Source: an uncultured Gemmatimonadota bacterium (GTDB lineage: Bacteria; Gemmatimonadota; Gemmatimonadetes; Gemmatimonadales; Gemmatimonadaceae). Taken from it: 64,000 nucleotides of DNA. Positions 54,337 through 64,000 of the stretch are shown piece by piece. The notes beneath the pieces are model-generated. The model searched no databases, was not told where the DNA came from, and saw nothing but the letters and a program-made list of their open reading frames with translations. The position numbers and the translations under genes are program-made. The DNA is taken from the NCBI GenBank assembly GCA_902826615.1, contig CADEFN010000002.1, positions 796,911 to 860,910 on the forward strand, written 5' to 3'. Each line of letters starts with the position of its first letter. Position 1 is the first letter of the stretch.

Positions 54337-56130
54337 TCACTCCACCACCTTCCCCACCGAATCACCGAGCATAAGCACCCGGTGCGCCCACCAGGGGGCG
54401 ATTCCGTTGCGCATCACCCGCTCATGAAACGCGAGGAGGTCGAACTTGTCGCCCTCCTTCACCTGCATGGCGTCGCGCAACTTGAACATGGCGTGTTTCC
54501 CCAGAAAATACCCGCCATTGGTCGGATCGTACACCACACGCACGGCTTCTTGCCGAGCTGCCTGTGCCGGCACATGTGCCTGCTCCTCGAAGAATTTGGC
54601 GGCGTCGTCCACGCTCCACACCCCCAAGTGAGTGTTGAGGCCCGCGATGAGCCGGCAGATGCGGGTCATTGACTCGGCGAGCTGGGCCATGGCGTACCGA
54701 GGGTCCTCGGCGTGGAAGCCCTGCTCCACCACCAGGTGCTCGGCGTAGTGCGCCCATCCGTCCTGCCCCGACGACGGCTGCGGAAAGGGATTGAGCCCGA
54801 TCCAGATGCGTCTGATCTTGCCCGGTGTCTCGCGCATGTAGAGCGAATGGACAAAGTGCCCAGGCATGGCCTCGTGTGACGAGGTGATGGCGAGCGACGC
54901 CACGTTGAAGCGCTCGAGCCAGGCATTCTGGCGTTCGGCGGGCCACGACGCGTTTGCATCGGTGACGTAGTAGATCGACTTGACGGGTGTTGGTTCGAGG
55001 GGCGGCGAGGCGTGCATCGACGCGAGCCCGAGGTCAAAGGGTCGAGAGGCTTCGACAATGACCCGTTCTCCCGCCGGAATGCGCGCCAGCTTCTTCGACT
55101 CCACAAACGATTGCAGGTCGTCCACGGCTCTGCGTGCGGCGTCAACGAGACCACCGGGTGCGGGGTGATCCTGACGTACGTCGCGCCACACCGAGAGGAA
55201 GTCCTTTGTGGCATCAACTTCCTTTGCCTTGGCCTGAAAGAGCGCCTGCTCTCGTGCCAGCTCTCGCACACCAATCGCCAGCAGATCGGCCACCTTGAGA
55301 TCGATCAGCTCCTCGGCCCGGTAGCGTGCCTCAACGTATTCCGCGCCTAACGCATTCTTGCCATTGGCCCGTGGCATCAGGTCGGCTTTCATCCATTCCA
55401 CAAAGGCGTCGATGGACGCCCTCGCCGACTTCGCCTCGGCCAGCAGTGATTTCCGTGTTTCCCCACGAGTGCTGGGAAAGGCCAGCTCGAGGTCGGCGCC
55501 GAGCATGGCGCTGGCACCTTCGAACATGGTGATGCCACGTTCGACCAGCACCTTCGGCGGGTTGTCGAGCTGCGTGCGGGCCGCGTCGAGCAGCCGATCA
55601 ACCCCTCGCAGCTTGCGCGTGATGCGCCGCATGCGCTCCTGCGCGCTGGCGCTTTCCATCGTCATGAGGTTGTGCACGCCATCGGCAATCGCCGACGCAT
55701 AGATCATCGGGTTGCGCCGGTGGTTCTTCATGCCATCGAGTTCCAGCAACCAGGCATCGACAATGCCGTCGAGGATCCGGTGATCCACCAACTCATCGGG
55801 TGGAAGGTCGGCGCGCGGGAGGTCGGCGAGACGCTGTTTCACCGTCCGAAGCCAGGCCACCTCCTCGGCGACGGCAGCAGCGCTGTAGTCTTCGAGTTTG
55901 GCATCGTGGGTGTGGATCCCGTTGCCGGCGGCAATCGACGGGTGGCGACTCGCCCAGGTGTCGAGATACTCGTCGACGAGATTGGCGAAGGCCTTGGCCG
56001 CCGGAGTGGCGGTGCCGTAACTGCCGGCCGCCGGTTCCTCTCGCGAGGCACGCGCCGGCGCGCGTCGCTCGAGGAAGAATGCACCAGCGGCCAGGACCGC
56101 GAGGAGGAGGGCATACCAGAGAACGCGCAT
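54337..56130 (-). CDS. DUF885 family protein (probable metallopeptidase)
   Basis: The 597-residue product has a signal or anchor (LWYALLLAVLAAGAFFLERR). DUF885 signatures: YLDTWASRHPSIAAGNGIHT near residue 60, the metal-binding SSHEAMPGHFVHSLYM (HExxxGH form, about residues 417-423), GWAHYAEHLVVEQGF and the C-terminal GGYFLGKHAMFKLRD. The family resembles M32/M3-type zinc peptidases and is common among secreted proteins of this type of bacterium. It starts at the stop of the upstream PLP gene (1-base overlap), so the two are translationally coupled. Confidence 0.88.
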   Translation of the reverse strand: MRVLWYALLLAVLAAGAFFLERRAPARASREEPAAGSYGTATPAAKAFANLVDEYLDTWASRHPSIAAGNGIHTHDAKLEDYSAAAVAEEVAWLRTVKQRLADLPRADLPPDELVDHRILDGIVDAWLLELDGMKNHRRNPMIYASAIADGVHNLMTMESASAQERMRRITRKLRGVDRLLDAARTQLDNPPKVLVERGITMFEGASAMLGADLELAFPSTRGETRKSLLAEAKSARASIDAFVEWMKADLMPRANGKNALGAEYVEARYRAEELIDLKVADLLAIGVRELAREQALFQAKAKEVDATKDFLSVWRDVRQDHPAPGGLVDAARRAVDDLQSFVESKKLARIPAGERVIVEASRPFDLGLASMHASPPLEPTPVKSIYYVTDANASWPAERQNAWLERFNVASLAITSSHEAMPGHFVHSLYMRETPGKIRRIWIGLNPFPQPSSGQDGWAHYAEHLVVEQGFHAEDPRYAMAQLAESMTRICRLIAGLNTHLGVWSVDDAAKFFEEQAHVPAQAARQEAVRVVYDPTNGGYFLGKHAMFKLRDAMQVKEGDKFDLLAFHERVMRNGIAPWWAHRVLMLGDSVGKVVE

Positions 56131-57410
56131 CAGGTCAGGCCTCGTGTGGCCGCGTGGGTCATGGCTCGGGCAAACACATCAATCTCCTGCAGTGTGGTGT
56201 AGACATTGGGCGTCACGCGGATGGCGCTGAACTCCCCACTCACTTCGCGCGGTCGCACATGCACCCGGTGACGTTTCATGAGCCAGTCCGTGAGTTGCGG
56301 TCCTGTCACCCCATCGAGTGACAAGGCGCCTAACGCGCAGGATTGGGCGTCGTCGTCAGGCGTGAGGATTTTGACCTTCGGCAGCTCACGCACCGCATTC
56401 ACCCAGCGACGACGCAGCAATCGCAGACGCGCCGCCTTGCGCTCGGGGCCGATACTCTCCCAGAAGTCCACCGCTTCGGTGATGGGATTCCGGATATGCA
56501 CCGGAAAGGTGCCGATCCCTTCGAACTTGCGGATGTTCGCCGCCATCTCCGGAGGCGAGGCAAAGAGCGACCAGATCTTCGGAATTTTTTCCTTGCGCAC
56601 GTAGAGAAAACCTGTCCCCACGGGCGCACTCAGCCACTTGTGCAGTGAGGTCCCGAAGTAGTCGCAATCGAGATCGTCGCGGGTGAATGGGAACTGGGCG
56701 TAGCTGTGGCCGCCGTCAACGATGACTTCGATGCCGCGCGCCCGTGCCATGCGGCAAATACGCTGGACGGGAAAGATCTGGCCGGTGGTGAAATACACAT
56801 GCGAGACGTGAATCACCTTTGTCTTTGGCGTGATCGCTCGCTCCACACGCGCCACCAGATCGTCCACACTCGGCGGCGGCGACGGAAAGGAAATCATTCG
56901 CAGCACCACGCCATCACGTCGTTCGCGCTGACGCCACGCCGAGGTCATCGAAGGGTAATCCTGCGTGGTGGTGAGAATTTCGTCGCCGCGTTCCAGCGGC
57001 ATGCCGAACTGCACAATCTCCAGCGCTTCGGTGGTGTTGCGCGTGAGGGCGAGCTCTTCGGCGTCGCAGCCGAATCGCGCGGCCAGCCGACCACGGACCA
57101 CGTCAAACGCCGGATACAGTGTTTCGTCGACGTAATACGACGGACTCATGTTGGTCATCGCCAGGTAATCGAGCTGCGCCTGCTGCACGCTTTTGGGCGA
57201 CGGGGCGACCGAGCCATTGTTGAGGTTGATGTTGTTGCGATCAACCGTGAAGGCCTGGCGCACGGTAAACCAGAAGTCCTCGTCGTCGGCTACCTTGTCT
57301 GGCGTTGCCGACGGGGTCCACGTTGCGAGACGATCGGCCAGGTGCAAAGCCTGACCGTTCAGGGAAACAACACCGGCGGCTGCCGAGGCGACAAAGTGGC
57401 GACGATGCAC
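56130..57410 (-). CDS. Exported class V aminotransferase-fold PLP enzyme (isopenicillin-N-epimerase-like)
   Basis: The 426-residue product begins MHRRHFVASAAAGVVSLNG, a Tat-like signal. The PLP fold is clear: LNNGSVAPSPKSVQQAQLDY, LALTRNTTEALEIVQFGM, HVSHVYFTTGQIFPV, IEVIVDGGHSYAQFPF and the PLP lysine in YFGTSLHKWLSAPVGTGF (about residue 257). The closest named group is isopenicillin N epimerase-like/cysteine-desulfurase-type enzymes. Export of a PLP enzyme requires folding in the cytoplasm, consistent with Tat. It is divergent from a second, related gene. Confidence 0.87.
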   Translation of the reverse strand: MHRRHFVASAAAGVVSLNGQALHLADRLATWTPSATPDKVADDEDFWFTVRQAFTVDRNNINLNNGSVAPSPKSVQQAQLDYLAMTNMSPSYYVDETLYPAFDVVRGRLAARFGCDAEELALTRNTTEALEIVQFGMPLERGDEILTTTQDYPSMTSAWRQRERRDGVVLRMISFPSPPPSVDDLVARVERAITPKTKVIHVSHVYFTTGQIFPVQRICRMARARGIEVIVDGGHSYAQFPFTRDDLDCDYFGTSLHKWLSAPVGTGFLYVRKEKIPKIWSLFASPPEMAANIRKFEGIGTFPVHIRNPITEAVDFWESIGPERKAARLRLLRRRWVNAVRELPKVKILTPDDDAQSCALGALSLDGVTGPQLTDWLMKRHRVHVRPREVSGEFSAIRVTPNVYTTLQEIDVFARAMTHAATRGLT

Positions 57411-57571: not shown

Positions 57572-58792
57572 ATGCCGATTTCTCGCCGGTCATTTGTCAG
57601 CTCGGCCGCCGTGCTCGCGGCTGGCACCGCCGCACGGCCAGGCGATTCCGCGATGACCCTCATCTCCGACGACCCCCTCGGCGTGCGCGCCGACTTCCCG
57701 GCGGCGACCAGCCGGACCTACCTCAACTCGGCGTACATCACGCCGAGTCCGCGCCAGGTGCTGGCGGCGGGGCAGGCCTTCCTCGAGCGCAAGGTCGAAC
57801 GACCCATTCCGCTGGGTGAGATGCTGCGGAAAACCGATGAGGTCCGGGCGCAGTTCGCGCGGCTCATCAACGCCTCGCCTGACGAAATCGGCTTTCTCTT
57901 TTCCACGAGTGAAGGAGAGAACATTGTCGCGGGGGCCCTCGATCTGGCGCCTGGCGACAACGTGGTGATCGACGAACTCCACTACGAAACCGAGTTTGTG
58001 CTTTATCGCGAGCTGGAGGCACGGCGCGGGATTCAGCTGCGGATTGTGAAACACACCAACGGCGCTGTACATCCGGCCGCCTTCGCCCCGCACATCGACA
58101 AGCGCACACGACTGGTCTCGGTGAGCTGGGTGTCACACGCCAACGGATTCCGGCATGACATGCGCCCCATCGCCGATCTTGCGCACGCGCAGGGCGCGCT
58201 GTTTTACGCCGATGCCATTCAGGCCATCGGCATGGTGCCGGTTGATGTACAGGCCTCGGGCGTCGACTTTCTGTGCTGCGGCACCTACAAGTGGGTGCTC
58301 GGCGGGTTTGGGGTGGCGCCCTTCTACGTCAGGAAGGATCTCATTGAGCGCATCCGGCTCGACCGCTTTGGCGCGCTTCATGTCGCGCGTACACTTCCGG
58401 ACTTCCGGTTCGAATTGCACAAAACCGCCAAACGGTTCGACTACTCCACCTTGCCCTTCAGCGAAGTCTATCAGCTGGGCGCGGGATTGACCTACCTCGA
58501 GAAAGTCGGCGTGCCGCGTATCGAGGCCCATTCGGTCGCGCTGGCGCGACAGCTGTACGAAGGGCTCGACCGGCAGGGCTACAAACTGTTCACACCTCCA
58601 GGCAATGCATCATCGATCGTGACCTTTTTCTTCACGCAGGAGCCGGGCGCGGTACGCGCGGCGTTCGATGCCGCTGCGGTGGATGTGACGGTGCGTGACG
58701 CACAGAAGCAGGTGCGGGTCTCCGCAGCTCTGTTCAACACCAGCGACGACGTCACACGATTTCTGGACACCACCCTCTCCATCTCCGGCTAG
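57572..58792 (+). CDS. Exported class V aminotransferase-fold PLP enzyme, second copy
   Basis: The 406-residue product begins MPISRRSFVSSAAVLAAGTA, a strong Tat signal. It shares the fold of the divergent neighbour: YLNSAYITPSPRQVLAAGQA, FLFSTSEGENIVAGALDLA, VSWVSHANGFRHDMRPI, LFYADAIQAIGMVPVDVQ and the PLP lysine in CGTYKWVLGGFGVAPFYVRK (about residue 239). The two proteins are clearly different in sequence, so they are paralogues of the same type rather than a recent duplication. The substrate is unknown; desulfurase, epimerase and transaminase reactions are all possible. Confidence 0.87.
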   Translation: MPISRRSFVSSAAVLAAGTAARPGDSAMTLISDDPLGVRADFPAATSRTYLNSAYITPSPRQVLAAGQAFLERKVERPIPLGEMLRKTDEVRAQFARLINASPDEIGFLFSTSEGENIVAGALDLAPGDNVVIDELHYETEFVLYRELEARRGIQLRIVKHTNGAVHPAAFAPHIDKRTRLVSVSWVSHANGFRHDMRPIADLAHAQGALFYADAIQAIGMVPVDVQASGVDFLCCGTYKWVLGGFGVAPFYVRKDLIERIRLDRFGALHVARTLPDFRFELHKTAKRFDYSTLPFSEVYQLGAGLTYLEKVGVPRIEAHSVALARQLYEGLDRQGYKLFTPPGNASSIVTFFFTQEPGAVRAAFDAAAVDVTVRDAQKQVRVSAALFNTSDDVTRFLDTTLSISG

Positions 58793-59008: not shown

Positions 59009-59045
59009 CTTGCCTAAGGCAAGGATTCGATGTACTCTGGCAAGT
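59009..59045 (+). promoter_or_regulatory. Promoter with palindromic operator upstream of the MarR-GNAT gene
   Basis: CTTGCC (59009-59014) and GGCAAG (59018-59023) form a perfect inverted repeat around TAA. A further half-site GGCAAGT is at 59039-59045. A possible promoter has -35 TTGCCT (59010-59015) and -10 TACTCT (59033-59038), 17 bases apart, so the palindrome covers the -35 box and the extra half-site touches the -10. This suits autoregulation by the MarR protein encoded 50 bases downstream. The rest of the 302-base gap (58793-59094) has no supported gene. Confidence 0.6.
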
Positions 59046-59094
59046 ACTGGATGTCGACTTTTCCGTTGCCAACACACGCCAGGCCACGCGCCAC

Positions 59095-60015
59095 ATGGAC
59101 GCACGAATCGAGACGGTGCGCCGCTTCAGTCGCCTGTACACGAAGCGGATCGGGCTCCTCCACGAGGGATTCCTCGACAGCCCCTTCACACTCACCGAGG
59201 GGCGGCTCATCTACGAACTCGCCCAGCGAGACCAGGCCACGGCCAGCGCCCTCGGTGCCGCGCTCGAACTCGATGCCGGGTACCTGAGTCGCGTCCTCCG
59301 ATCCCTCGTGCGAAGCGGCATTGTACGCAAGCGCAGGTCGCCCGAGGACCGGCGCCAATACCTGCTCTCTTTGAGCGAGCGCGGCGCCCAGGCCTTTGCG
59401 CAGCTCAATGCCACCTCGCAGGCCGAAGTCGGGTCCATGCTCGCCGGGCTTGCCGCAGACGACCAGCAACGGTTGGTGACCGCGCTCTCCCAGCTCGAGG
59501 CCATTCTGGGCGATCGCCAGGAACCGCGCGTACCGTATGTCCTCCGCCTTCATCACGTCGGCGATATGGGGTGGGTCGTCGAGCAGCAGGCGCGACTGTA
59601 CAACCGCGAGTTCGGGTGGACCAGCGAGTACGAGGCGCTCTGTGCAGAGATCGTCGCGCAGTTCCTGCGACATTTCGAGCCGAACCGCGAGCGATGCTGG
59701 ATCGCCGAGCGCGAGGGCGAGCGCGTGGGCTCCGTCTTCCTGATGCGACATCGGGAGCGCGATCGCGTCGCGCGACTTCGGCTGCTCTTCGTTGATGAGC
59801 GCGCGCGGGGGTTCGGGATCGGTCAACGACTGGTACGCGAGTGCACCCACTTCGCTCGCGAGGCCGGATACCAGACGATCACACTCTGGACCAACTCTAT
59901 CCTCCACGCCGCCCGGCGCATCTACCAGCACGAGGGCTACCACCTCGTGCATGAAGAGGCTCATCACACGTTCGGCCAAGACCTCGTCGGCCAAACCTGG
60001 GAGCTGGCGCTGTGA
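59095..60015 (+). CDS. MarR-family regulator fused to GNAT N-acetyltransferase
   Basis: From ATG 59095 the product is 306 residues; the frame is open upstream to 58831 but would run through the operator. Residues 1-145 are a MarR winged helix (FTLTEGRLIYELAQRDQATA, LDAGYLSRVLRSLVRSGIVR, SPEDRRQYLLSLSERG). Residues about 150-306 are a GNAT domain with the acetyl-CoA loop in RARGFGIGQRLVRECTHFA and a closing HAARRIYQHEGYHLVHEEAH. The fusion is a known architecture, in which a small molecule may be both sensed and acetylated. The GTGA overlap with the ThiF gene shows translational coupling. Confidence 0.9.
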   Translation: MDARIETVRRFSRLYTKRIGLLHEGFLDSPFTLTEGRLIYELAQRDQATASALGAALELDAGYLSRVLRSLVRSGIVRKRRSPEDRRQYLLSLSERGAQAFAQLNATSQAEVGSMLAGLAADDQQRLVTALSQLEAILGDRQEPRVPYVLRLHHVGDMGWVVEQQARLYNREFGWTSEYEALCAEIVAQFLRHFEPNRERCWIAEREGERVGSVFLMRHRERDRVARLRLLFVDERARGFGIGQRLVRECTHFAREAGYQTITLWTNSILHAARRIYQHEGYHLVHEEAHHTFGQDLVGQTWELAL

Positions 60016-61157
60016 CGGCACGCGCAGTAGGACCACGTGAGGTGTTTGACCTCGCGGCCTTTCGCGCGTGTGTGGCGACCGTGCTTGCCGATGCGGCGAC
60101 GTCGTACGAACCGGTCTTCGTCCAGCTGGCGCCGGGGGAGCGACGGGGGCTCGAAGTGCTCTGTCTCGAACATGCCATAACCCTGGTGGATTCCATCGAT
60201 CGGCAGCTCGCCGACCTGGCCGCGGTGCGACGCCCTGGCGGAACGGCCGATGACCGCGCGAGATGCATCGCCGACCACGTCGCCCGCGCTGGCGATGCCG
60301 ATGCGTGCGGACTCTGGGTCCTGCTCCCGTGGGAGGTACGCCTGGTGCACCTCCTCGACCCCGCGGCGTATCTCGAGGTGATCACGAGCCGCAACCGGGA
60401 GAAGATCACGCGCGACGAACAGGAGCTGCTGCGCTCACGACTTGTCGGCGTTGTGGGGCTGTCGGTTGGCGGCGAGGCCGCGGTCACCGTCGCGCAGGAG
60501 CACCTCTGCGGTGAGATGGTGCTGGCCGACTTCGACGCGCTCGACCTGTCCAACCTCAACCGCCTCGGCGCCGGCGTCGACGACCTCGGAAAGAACAAGG
60601 CGATCCTCGTAGCGCGACGCATCGTGAAGATCGACCCATACCTGCGGATCCGTGTGTACACCGAAGGCGTCACGGCGGCCAATATCGACTCCTTCCTCGA
60701 CCGACTCGACCTCCTGATCGAGGAGTGCGACAGCCTCCCGCTCAAGTACCTCATGCGCGAGAAGGCCCGGGAACGTCGGCTCAACATCATCTTCGCCGGC
60801 GACGAACGAGGCTTCCTGAGTCTCGAGCCGTACGCGACGCATCCCCGGCTGCCCGCCTTTCATGGTCGAGTCACGGGCCCGCAGCCCCCGCGCGACGCGT
60901 ATGCGACCGCCGCCGAGTTCCTTCGGGCGCTGACCGTTTGGCTTGGCGGATGGGACGCGATCTCCGAGCGCTCGCGGCGCTCGCTGGAGGGAGTGGGCAC
61001 GACGGTGAGTGGCTACCCGCAGTTAGCCGGAGAGGCCCGCCTTGCTGCCGGGCAGCTCGCGTGGTTTGCTCGCAAGCTGCTACTCGGCGAAGGCGTGGAA
61101 CCGTTCGTCGGGCACCTCGATCTCGATGAACTGGTGGCCCGCACGACCCGCAACTAG
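60012..61157 (+). CDS. ThiF/E1-like adenylyltransferase
   Basis: The 381-residue product starts at GTG 60012 inside the previous stop. After an alpha-rich N-terminal region of about 140 residues, an E1-like Rossmann domain begins: LVGVVGLSVGGEAAVTVAQE (about 143-162), MVLADFDALDLSNLNRLGAG with the Arg-containing ATP site, DDLGKNKAILVARRI and LLIEECDSLPLKYLMREKA. The usual E1 sequence GxGxxG is replaced by GLSVGG, as in the Rv1355c-type ThiF group. A conserved-looking Cys (about 239) follows the domain's Asp/Glu run. No ubiquitin-like or sulfur-carrier partner gene is adjacent, so the substrate is unknown. Confidence 0.85.
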   Translation: MTARAVGPREVFDLAAFRACVATVLADAATSYEPVFVQLAPGERRGLEVLCLEHAITLVDSIDRQLADLAAVRRPGGTADDRARCIADHVARAGDADACGLWVLLPWEVRLVHLLDPAAYLEVITSRNREKITRDEQELLRSRLVGVVGLSVGGEAAVTVAQEHLCGEMVLADFDALDLSNLNRLGAGVDDLGKNKAILVARRIVKIDPYLRIRVYTEGVTAANIDSFLDRLDLLIEECDSLPLKYLMREKARERRLNIIFAGDERGFLSLEPYATHPRLPAFHGRVTGPQPPRDAYATAAEFLRALTVWLGGWDAISERSRRSLEGVGTTVSGYPQLAGEARLAAGQLAWFARKLLLGEGVEPFVGHLDLDELVARTTRN

Positions 61158-62077: not shown

Positions 62078-63256
62078 CTACTCGTCCTGTACACTCCCCC
62101 AGTTCACGATCGGGAGTACACGGCGTCCACGCGGGTTACTCTTGGCAATGTTGATGAGACCCAGCTGCACGCCATGCAGTGACCGCGCGTAGTTCACCAG
62201 CCCGAGCGTGAGTCCGCGCTGCTGACCGCGAATGTAGTTGAAGGCACTCGCCGAGACTCCTCGCAGCCGCCCCCCGGGCTCCACGCGTACAACGGCTCCC
62301 GCGAGCATGAGCCCGCGAAGCTCCTTGCCGCCAATGCCGACGCCCGACACAGCCACGCCTCGGATTTCCGGCGCGCCCACACCAACTCCGGCAACGGCGA
62401 GCCGCCTTATGGAACCGCCAGCGCCGAGGCCGATCCCGGCGATCATGATCCCTTCCATGTTGCCCCCAACGCCCATACCCACGCCGCTCACACTGATGCC
62501 ACGAAAGTTGCCTCCGACACCCGTGCCAATGCCCGAGAGGGTGACACCGGTGTAGTTGCCACCGACCCCGCCGCCGATCCCGCTCAGCAGCAGTCCACGG
62601 CCATTTCCCCCGGCTGCGGCACCAATTCCCGCCAGTACGATCCCCTCCATGTCGCCGCCGGCGCCCAAGCCAACTCCTGACACGGCGATGCCACGGAACG
62701 AGCCCCCCGCAGCTCCCCCAACTCCAGCGAGCATCATCCCTTCTACGTCTCCCCCGGCGCCGACCCCCACCCCTCCCACCAGCAAGCCACGAACATTCCC
62801 GCCAGCACCACCTCCAACGCCGGCCAGCAACACCCCCTCCAGGTCACCACCGGTTCCGGCACCCACGCCGCCGACAAAAATGCCCTTCATTCGGCCGCCG
62901 GCACCCAACCCGATTCCGCCAATGCCGATGCCCGACAGCTCACTCTCGGCGCTGGCACCAAAAACACCAAGCGCCACGCCGCGGATGCTGCGTCCTCCCG
63001 TCGATGGGAGTCCGAGAGCCAGACCTTTGACGTCGCCAGCTCCTCCTTCCTTGGGCTGCCAGATGGTGACGTTCGCACCGCGCACCCATTCGAGGCGGGT
63101 ATCGCGGAAGTTGAGGCGCAGCCCCTTCACGCGCCGCGAGTCTCCGATCGATATGCCGTGTCTGACGCCGACCCCGCCAGAATCGCGTCCTTCCTGGGCC
63201 GAGAGGCCCGGGGCAGTGACCGCACACACCAACAGCACCGACAACGTTTGCCGCAT
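62078..63256 (-). CDS. Secreted protein with Gly-rich 16-residue tandem repeats (surface-repeat type)
   Basis: ATG 63256, with GAGG four bases upstream, gives 392 residues with a Sec signal (LSVLLVCAVTAPGLSAQE); earlier in-frame starts lie in non-signal sequence. From about residue 95 to 285 there are roughly eleven perfect-length repeats of 16 residues with the pattern GG-x-x-x-G-(I/L/M)-x-(V/L)-(A/S/G)-G-(I/V)-G-x-G-x. Examples: GGDLEGVLLAGVGGGA, GGNVRGLLVGGVGVGA, GGNMEGIMIAGIGLGA. The end has RGLTLGLVNYARSLHGVQLG and LINIA, like the LA_2272-type surface repeats of Leptospira. A beta-solenoid on the cell surface is likely. No enzyme motif was found. Confidence 0.8.
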   Translation of the reverse strand: MRQTLSVLLVCAVTAPGLSAQEGRDSGGVGVRHGISIGDSRRVKGLRLNFRDTRLEWVRGANVTIWQPKEGGAGDVKGLALGLPSTGGRSIRGVALGVFGASAESELSGIGIGGIGLGAGGRMKGIFVGGVGAGTGGDLEGVLLAGVGGGAGGNVRGLLVGGVGVGAGGDVEGMMLAGVGGAAGGSFRGIAVSGVGLGAGGDMEGIVLAGIGAAAGGNGRGLLLSGIGGGVGGNYTGVTLSGIGTGVGGNFRGISVSGVGMGVGGNMEGIMIAGIGLGAGGSIRRLAVAGVGVGAPEIRGVAVSGVGIGGKELRGLMLAGAVVRVEPGGRLRGVSASAFNYIRGQQRGLTLGLVNYARSLHGVQLGLINIAKSNPRGRRVLPIVNWGSVQDE

Positions 63257-63333
63257 GTAACCTCGGGGATGTGGAATCATCGTTCCTACGATGCACACTC
63301 CCCGAGCGTTGCGACGACGCCTGTGAGATGGGC

Positions 63334-64000
63334 CTACCCGATCACCTCGCGATAGAGCCGATAGAGGTTGGCCCCCATGATCTTCTCGATCGCCGCCGAC
63401 CCCAGGCCACGGCGAGAGAGCGCGCTCCACACCACCTCCATCCGACGCGGACCATTCAGCGCCTCGAGAAAGAGGGGGAGCTCGTCATCCACCACCTGCG
63501 AGCCCTCCTCACGCTTCAGCTCGGAGATGTACTCGGGGGTCATCTTGATCACCCGATGGTCGCGATCACTCCCGATGCACACGTGGTCTTCGCCGGCCAC
63601 CTTCACGGCGTGTGCGATGTGATCGATGTACGCATCGAGATTGTCGGTCTTCTTCCGCGTCAGGAATGGCCGAATCTGGCAGATCCCAACGACGCCACCG
63701 CCGTTGGACAACGCGCGCAGGTTGTCGTCGGTGGTGTTGCGCACATGCGCAAAAACCGATTGGCAGCCGGTGTGTGAGATGTGAACGGGTGCACGCGAGG
63801 CGGCGATGGCGTCGGCCATGGTCGCCATGTTCACATGCGACAGATCCAGGAGCATTCGGCGCGAGTTCATGCGATCGATGAGCCTGCGCCCGAACTCTGT
63901 GAGCCGCCCCTCGGCGCGGCAGCCGGCTCCGGCCAGGTTGCGATCGTTGTACGTGAGCTGACAGCTTCGCAGGCCGAGCCGATAGAAGAGATCGACACGG
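63334..64000 (-). CDS. Membrane dipeptidase (peptidase M19), C-terminal part (partial)
   Basis: The gene runs off the right edge, so its 5' end is missing; the last 222 residues are present. The sequence LRSCQLTYNDRNLAGAGCRA, LTEFGRRLIDRMNSRRMLLD, LSHVN, HISHTGCQSVFAHVRNTTDD and DHVCIGSDRDH matches renal-dipeptidase-like enzymes, with His residues in LSHVN and ISHTG and an Asp in GSDRDH as binuclear zinc ligands. These enzymes cleave dipeptides, often outside the cytoplasm. The stop is 77 bases from the start of the repeat protein gene in the same direction. Confidence 0.92.
   Translation of the reverse strand, partial: RVDLFYRLGLRSCQLTYNDRNLAGAGCRAEGRLTEFGRRLIDRMNSRRMLLDLSHVNMATMADAIAASRAPVHISHTGCQSVFAHVRNTTDDNLRALSNGGGVVGICQIRPFLTRKKTDNLDAYIDHIAHAVKVAGEDHVCIGSDRDHRVIKMTPEYISELKREEGSQVVDDELPLFLEALNGPRRMEVVWSALSRRGLGSAAIEKIMGANLYRLYREVIG

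Follow-up and report, generated by a model that had tools for sequence, protein, structure and literature searches.

What can a transcriptional regulator fused to an acyltransferase do together with a ThiF-type adenylating enzyme? The question is raised by two overlapping genes of a Gemmatimonadota bacterium, which encode a MarR-GNAT fusion and a ThiF/E1-like partner and lie in a 64-kb window (the whole stretch of DNA that was analysed). The earlier note on this DNA took the system to be possibly uncharacterised. This is not wholly the case, as TrzAS, OxzAB, and TyzACB are related, experimentally characterised acyltransferase and ThiF pathways that lead to N-acyl oxazolones (PMC12856293, PMC10404671). 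They supply concrete chemistry for the pair, namely N-acylation followed by ATP-dependent cyclisation.

Layout of the gene pair

The first gene had been described as a MarR regulator fused to an acetyltransferase and joined to the second gene by a GTGA overlap. Both Pfam domains are indeed found in one open reading frame, and the overlap is in place (Table 1). A longer MarR-GNAT frame from 58831, which appears in the list of open reading frames, is unsupported, because the alignment with homologs begins only at about the first residues past 59095. The structure model of the MarR-GNAT protein is poor, with a mean pLDDT of 62.6. The literature yielded no paper on this kind of MarR-GNAT fusion.

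Table 1. Features of the MarR-GNAT/ThiF locus, in window positions
Feature	Position	Strand	Basis
Perfect palindrome CTTGCC-TAA-GGCAAG (CTTGCCTAAGGCAAG), putative MarR autoregulatory operator	59009..59023		Sequence; conserved in homologous loci
Putative -35 TTGCCT, overlapped by the operator, weak	59010..59015	+	Sequence; TTGACA in L022, L023, L038, and L039
Putative -10 TACTCT, 17 bp past the -35	59033..59038	+	Sequence; TATAAT at the same spacing in L039
Extra half-site GGCAAGTA (GGCAAG at 59039-59044), directly after the -10	59039..59046		Similar in L021 and L039
MarR-GNAT fusion gene, 306 aa	59095..60015	+	Pfam, translation
MarR winged-helix domain, residues 31-88	59185..59358	+	PF01047, E 2.8e-12
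GNAT acyltransferase domain, residues 183-281, acyl-CoA-binding motif RGFGIG	59641..59937	+	Acetyltransf_1 (PF00583), E 3.6e-14; GNAT fold matches
GTGA start/stop overlap (GTG/TGA), kept in 6 of 7 loci	60012..60015	+	Sequence, homologous loci
ThiF/E1-like adenylating enzyme of Rv1355c (TrzS) cyclase-half type, without oxidase domain, 381 aa	60012..61157	+	PF00899, E 4.6e-20; NF005901
E1 ATP-binding core, ThiF residues 127-265 (G149-L-S-V-G-G154, D173, D175, N181, N183, R184, K196, D240)	60390..60806	+	Pfam, alignment

Conservation and distribution

Seven loci with a short-form ThiF were compared: the window, L021, L022, L023, L037, L038, and L039. The earlier note proposed a search for the pairing in related genomes, and the pairing proves to be conserved. 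In all seven Gemmatimonadota loci a MarR-GNAT gene lies directly upstream of the short ThiF, its product being 49–89% identical to the window MarR-GNAT, and no short-form ThiF without an adjacent MarR-GNAT occurs among the seven. The GTGA overlap is absent only in L039, where the MarR-GNAT stop is TAA and ThiF starts shortly past it. The flanking genes vary between loci, the pair lying among them as a unit, and pairwise identities of MarR-GNAT and ThiF are correlated (r = 0.89). A third partner gene common to the loci was not found.

ThiF is present in 8 of 395 Gemmatimonadota genomes, as five short forms and three Rv1355c-like relatives (one other genus). MarR-GNAT-like proteins are present in 57 of 249 sampled Gemmatimonadota genomes, some of these matches covering the GNAT part only. 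Beyond Gemmatimonadota the searches covered plasmids, phages, and viral contigs, together with a single pattern scan of genome contigs; a phage or viral origin was rejected, as neither phages nor viral contigs gave a match.

The short ThiFs form a single clade with 100/100 support and a long branch, while the ThiF-linked MarR-GNATs are scattered in the MarR-GNAT tree. Well-supported branches force at least three changes there, which rules out a single clade of ThiF-linked MarR-GNATs. ThiF was therefore lost, or exchanged or moved, more than once. One locus (L077) is counted as ThiF-less but lies at a contig edge, which makes the absence of ThiF there unsure. A SAM methyltransferase gene lies downstream of MarR-GNAT in three ThiF-less loci (L099, 4935-5702; L100, 3164-3934, reverse strand; L096, 3412-4044, reverse strand), and overlaps it in L099 and L100. 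These methyltransferase loci suggest that the second enzymes behind the same self-regulated MarR-GNAT are exchangeable. MarR-GNAT thus has the appearance of a unit that regulates itself and in some loci is accompanied by a second enzyme, which in this case is ThiF.

Putative operator and promoter

The palindrome over the -35 and the extra half-site near the -10, both described in the earlier note, are seen in the window, the palindrome lying 71 bp upstream of the MarR-GNAT start. By itself the palindrome is weak evidence, as its chance level is P about 0.013 in 130 bp of upstream DNA and the 64-kb window contains 31 perfect 6-3-6 palindromes. It gains significance from its conservation across all seven loci. 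An operator of the form TACTTG(C/A)C-n3-G-CAAGTA over the -35 is found upstream in every one of them and fits 12–14 of the 14 specified bases per locus, each with p ≤ 0.001 by dinucleotide shuffling, although these p-values are somewhat optimistic because the pattern was derived from the same seven loci. The left operator arm is ACTTGACA in four of the seven, with a perfect -35 inside, and the L039 promoter reads TTGACA-17-TATAAT; hence the operator covers the -35. The predicted promoter of the window itself stands in part. Its elements are present, with TTGACA at the same place in homologous loci, but they are weak in the window, where a scan for the sigma-70 consensus finds nothing above a threshold of 9 of 12.

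The PF01047 winged helix and the conserved palindrome over its own promoter are consistent with a MarR regulator acting on its own gene. The same operator precedes most of 15 ThiF-less MarR-GNAT loci, for example as TACTTGACTTTGTCAAGCA, and is thus the putative autoregulatory site of the MarR-GNAT family. The claim that the pair regulates itself and both acylates and adenylates a small molecule withstands the checks on pairing and on ATP-binding residues, but the operator is not specific to the pair. A regulon with more operator copies was considered and rejected: the genome has no second good site, the sole extra place has two mismatches, and a control pattern gives equally many matches.

The ThiF/E1-like enzyme

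Assignment of the second protein to the Rv1355c-like group of ThiF-type enzymes is borne out by the NCBIfam profile of the Rv1355c family (NF005901) for the N-terminal half only. The match covers model positions 8-343 of 722 (E 3.9e-91) and reaches 306 bits, below the curated cut-off of 476 bits. Nearly all of the window ThiF can be aligned with the family's cyclase half. Its identity to TrzS homologs from Rhodococcus, Mycolicibacterium, and Gemmatimonadota is 38–41% across about 280 residues. The profile match and this identity place it among the ThiF-like cyclases of the Rv1355c/OxzB group.

Residues G149, G153, D173, D175, N183, R184, K196, and D240 are invariant in the seven short ThiFs and the full-length TrzS homologs. 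N181 is present in all seven short ThiFs and in all but one full-length homolog. D240 aligns with the aspartate of the ECD motif in TrzS homologs and probably corresponds to D217 of TrzS; the substitution D217A in the ThiF adenylation motif of TrzS abolishes cyclisation and desaturation (PMC12856293). The ATP-binding residues, a further check proposed in the earlier note, are intact and invariant in the alignment, and the adenylation site, including the aspartate for cyclisation, is predicted to be complete.

The AlphaFold model of ThiF has a mean pLDDT of 71.2. It matches the folds of AclA, ThiF, MoeB, UBA5, and MccB over residues 116-375, with AclA the best, and PaaA is a further fold neighbour. 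No paper on AclA was found. The best profile match of the ThiF family among solved sequences is TcdA.

Oxazolone pathways and the missing oxidase

Rv1356c and Rv1355c were identified in 2025 as TrzA and TrzS, the latter combining a ThiF cyclase and a flavin oxidase in one protein, in a pathway whose products are N-acyl tryptazolones (PMC12856293). In the first step L-tryptophan is N-acylated by TrzA. TrzS carries out the next two: its ThiF half uses ATP to close the ring of the TrzA product, and its flavin oxidase half desaturates the cyclised compound. Under oxygen limitation, or with a crippled oxidase, this compound builds up in its saturated form (PMC12856293). TyzACB performs equivalent chemistry with a stand-alone ThiF, TyzB (PMC10404671).

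The window pair shares with these pathways an adjacent N-acyltransferase gene, present in all seven loci, whose predicted acylation of amines is assigned by family. A flavin oxidase of the nitroreductase superfamily is absent from the window ThiF protein and from neighbour genes by Pfam and NF005901, and the oxidase half of NF005901 has no match at E 1e-20 in the five genomes with a short ThiF. A hidden FDO oxidase was also sought in the bacterium's own genome; only two short nitroreductases occur, neither near the pair, and it is possible that one of them serves the pathway. Since the oxidase is missing, the pair is not classed among the oxazolone pathways, and the claim is limited to a resemblance to their first two steps.

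Oxidase-less forms occur elsewhere. A Streptomyces plasmid has an Rv1355c-type ThiF without oxidase (NF005901, 422 bits) that overlaps a GNAT gene; upstream lies a MerR regulator. A second Streptomyces plasmid (L048, 4122-7036) has an Rv1355c-type ThiF, again without oxidase, with an N-terminal extension weakly matching GNAT, and this ThiF gene overlaps a KAS III-type gene. It is possibly another variant of the acyltransferase-ThiF theme.

Genes around the pair

In two related loci the pair lies directly upstream of arginine-biosynthesis-like genes, judged by eye as an argJ-like gene and a further arg gene (L023, from 7146 onward; L038, on the reverse strand beyond the ThiF gene). In these loci a dimethylarginine-hydrolase-like gene precedes the pair on the other strand. 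Such neighbours possibly hint at an amino-acid substrate, or are a coincidence.

In the window, two class V aminotransferase genes are divergent (56130-57410 on the reverse strand and 57572-58792 on the forward strand). The product of the latter has a twin-arginine-type signal (weak Pfam match) and is only distantly like PvdN and SufS-type enzymes. The reverse-strand gene at 62078-63430 encodes a protein of 450 aa in which irregular glycine-rich repeats (G-V-G-x-G-A-G-G-x-x-x-G-...) occur about a dozen times; the protein has no Pfam match, and no tandem repeat was detected at the DNA level.

Proposed mechanism and alternatives

The pair is best described as a variant of the known acyltransferase-ThiF (oxazolone-type) pathway that has no oxidase and whose acyltransferase and putative repressor are parts of one protein. 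The MarR domain would bind the palindrome over the -35 and repress its own operon until a ligand, probably a substrate or product of the pair, lifts the repression. The fused GNAT domain would move an acyl group from acyl-CoA onto the amine of an amino-acid-like small molecule. Going by its homology to the TrzS half and its conserved active site, the ThiF-like enzyme would then adenylate the carboxylate of the N-acyl product with ATP and close an oxazolone or similar ring. As no flavin oxidase is present, the expected product would be a saturated oxazolone, or what its hydrolysis or attack by an amine yields.

A two-gene, self-regulated module in which GNAT N-acylates an amino-acid-like substrate, ThiF adenylates and cyclises it, and MarR senses the substrate or product has roughly even prospects of being correct. 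It is favoured because ThiF is a homolog of the Rv1355c cyclase half, its E1 residues are invariant in 7/7, the acyltransferase co-occurs in 7/7, and the overlap is kept in 6/7; the Streptomyces plasmid parallels, the TcdA profile match, and the conservation of the operator also speak for it. Against it counts the oxidase, present in all characterised oxazolone pathways and missing here. TyzA is AHL-synthase/FeeM-like while the window has an ordinary Acetyltransf_1 domain, so that the acyltransferase of the window is perhaps no more than an analogue. ThiF is lacking beside most MarR-GNATs, which means that GNAT does not need ThiF and is a further point against the module. The scattering of ThiF-linked MarR-GNATs over their tree and the poor MarR-GNAT structure model also count against it. 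Saturated oxazolones are chemically labile, and for this reason are odd as end products. The more specific proposal, an oxazolone-type pathway in two polypeptides whose acyltransferase is itself the repressor and which, without an oxidase, gives saturated reactive oxazolones or captured products as an autoregulated signal or acylating agent, is tentative and rather doubtful.

The pair could instead serve resistance and not biosynthesis, as a self-inducible detoxification system in which MarR senses a foreign toxin of amine or amino-acid type, GNAT acetylates it, and ThiF blocks its carboxylate by cyclisation or conjugation. The patchy distribution agrees with this, and ThiF-less MarR-GNATs, common in the phylum and preceded by the same operator, fit a stand-alone sense-and-acetylate unit; at three ThiF-less loci a SAM methyltransferase occupies the downstream place. 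Among the GNAT fold matches are phosphinothricin, tabtoxin, and arsinothricin acetyltransferases, but such matches lack specificity and come from a low-quality model. With no toxin, resistance, or efflux gene conserved beside the pair in the loci compared, and with a ThiF specifically of the oxazolone-cyclase group, detoxification is unlikely. It is quite improbable that MarR-GNAT works alone while ThiF is just a passenger under the same regulation or serves some unrelated reaction. The many MarR-GNATs without ThiF, and the lack of a single clade for those linked to it, would suit such a passenger, but the short ThiF is next to MarR-GNAT in all seven loci, their genes overlap in six of these, and the two remain a unit with correlated identities in differing neighbourhoods.

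Still less probable is a protein or peptide modification or sulfur-carrier system (ubiquitin-like, ThiS/MoaD-like, or RiPP), in which ThiF would activate the C-terminal carboxylate of a polypeptide. The E1 fold is generic and its fold neighbours MccB and PaaA act on peptides, but the only invariant cysteines of the short ThiFs are C51 and C239, and the window ThiF has neither a cysteine C-terminal to D240 nor a CxxC zinc motif that could serve thioester formation or zinc binding. The earlier note saw no ubiquitin-like partner, JAB protease, or precursor gene nearby, and the scan of neighbour genes agrees, finding none of these and also no E2 and no carrier protein for a ThiF/MoeB sulfur-carrier or ubiquitin-like E1. 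These readings were rejected on both grounds. An anti-phage E1-E2(-JAB) system was likewise rejected, as the PADLOC E1-E2 models match weakly and only in the common ThiF core (34 bits at best), and no E2 or JAB domain occurs in the scanned neighbours.

The physiological role of bacterial N-acyl oxazolones has been called a major open question (PMC12856293). An acyltransferase that shares one protein with the putative repressor of its operon is a direct handle on it, and the built-in sensor allows the role of such molecules to be tested. A molecule that releases the MarR domain from the operator would indicate what the pathway uses or makes. If the acylation-cyclisation reading is true, a ThiF cyclase can work without an oxidase.

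Comparison with known systems

The stand-alone MarR-GNAT fusions of Gemmatimonadota have the same domain order, 48–58% identity, and the same operator over the -35. In contrast, they lack the ThiF partner, and some have a methyltransferase instead. TcdA, the tRNA ct6A cyclase, is E1-like too; it uses ATP to activate a carboxylate for cyclisation and has no ubiquitin-like partner. Its substrate, however, is tRNA, and only the E1 core of about 125 residues aligns with the window ThiF.

TyzACB and OxzAB also consist of an acyltransferase and a ThiF cyclase, and TyzB is a stand-alone ThiF like that of the window. They differ in including an oxidase (TyzC, or the nitroreductase domain of OxzB), and no fused regulator is mentioned for them. 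Their ThiF falls in a different subcluster of the published network from TrzS, and TyzA, compared by published description only, is AHL-synthase/FeeM-like, unlike the Acetyltransf_1 GNAT of the window. When compared to TrzA-TrzS, the window pair lacks the flavin-oxidase half, its acyltransferase is a standard GNAT fused to MarR, and the short ThiFs form their own clade. Both are two-gene systems of an acyltransferase and an Rv1355c-type ThiF, with the ThiF half homologous along its length and the adenylation aspartate and ATP site conserved.
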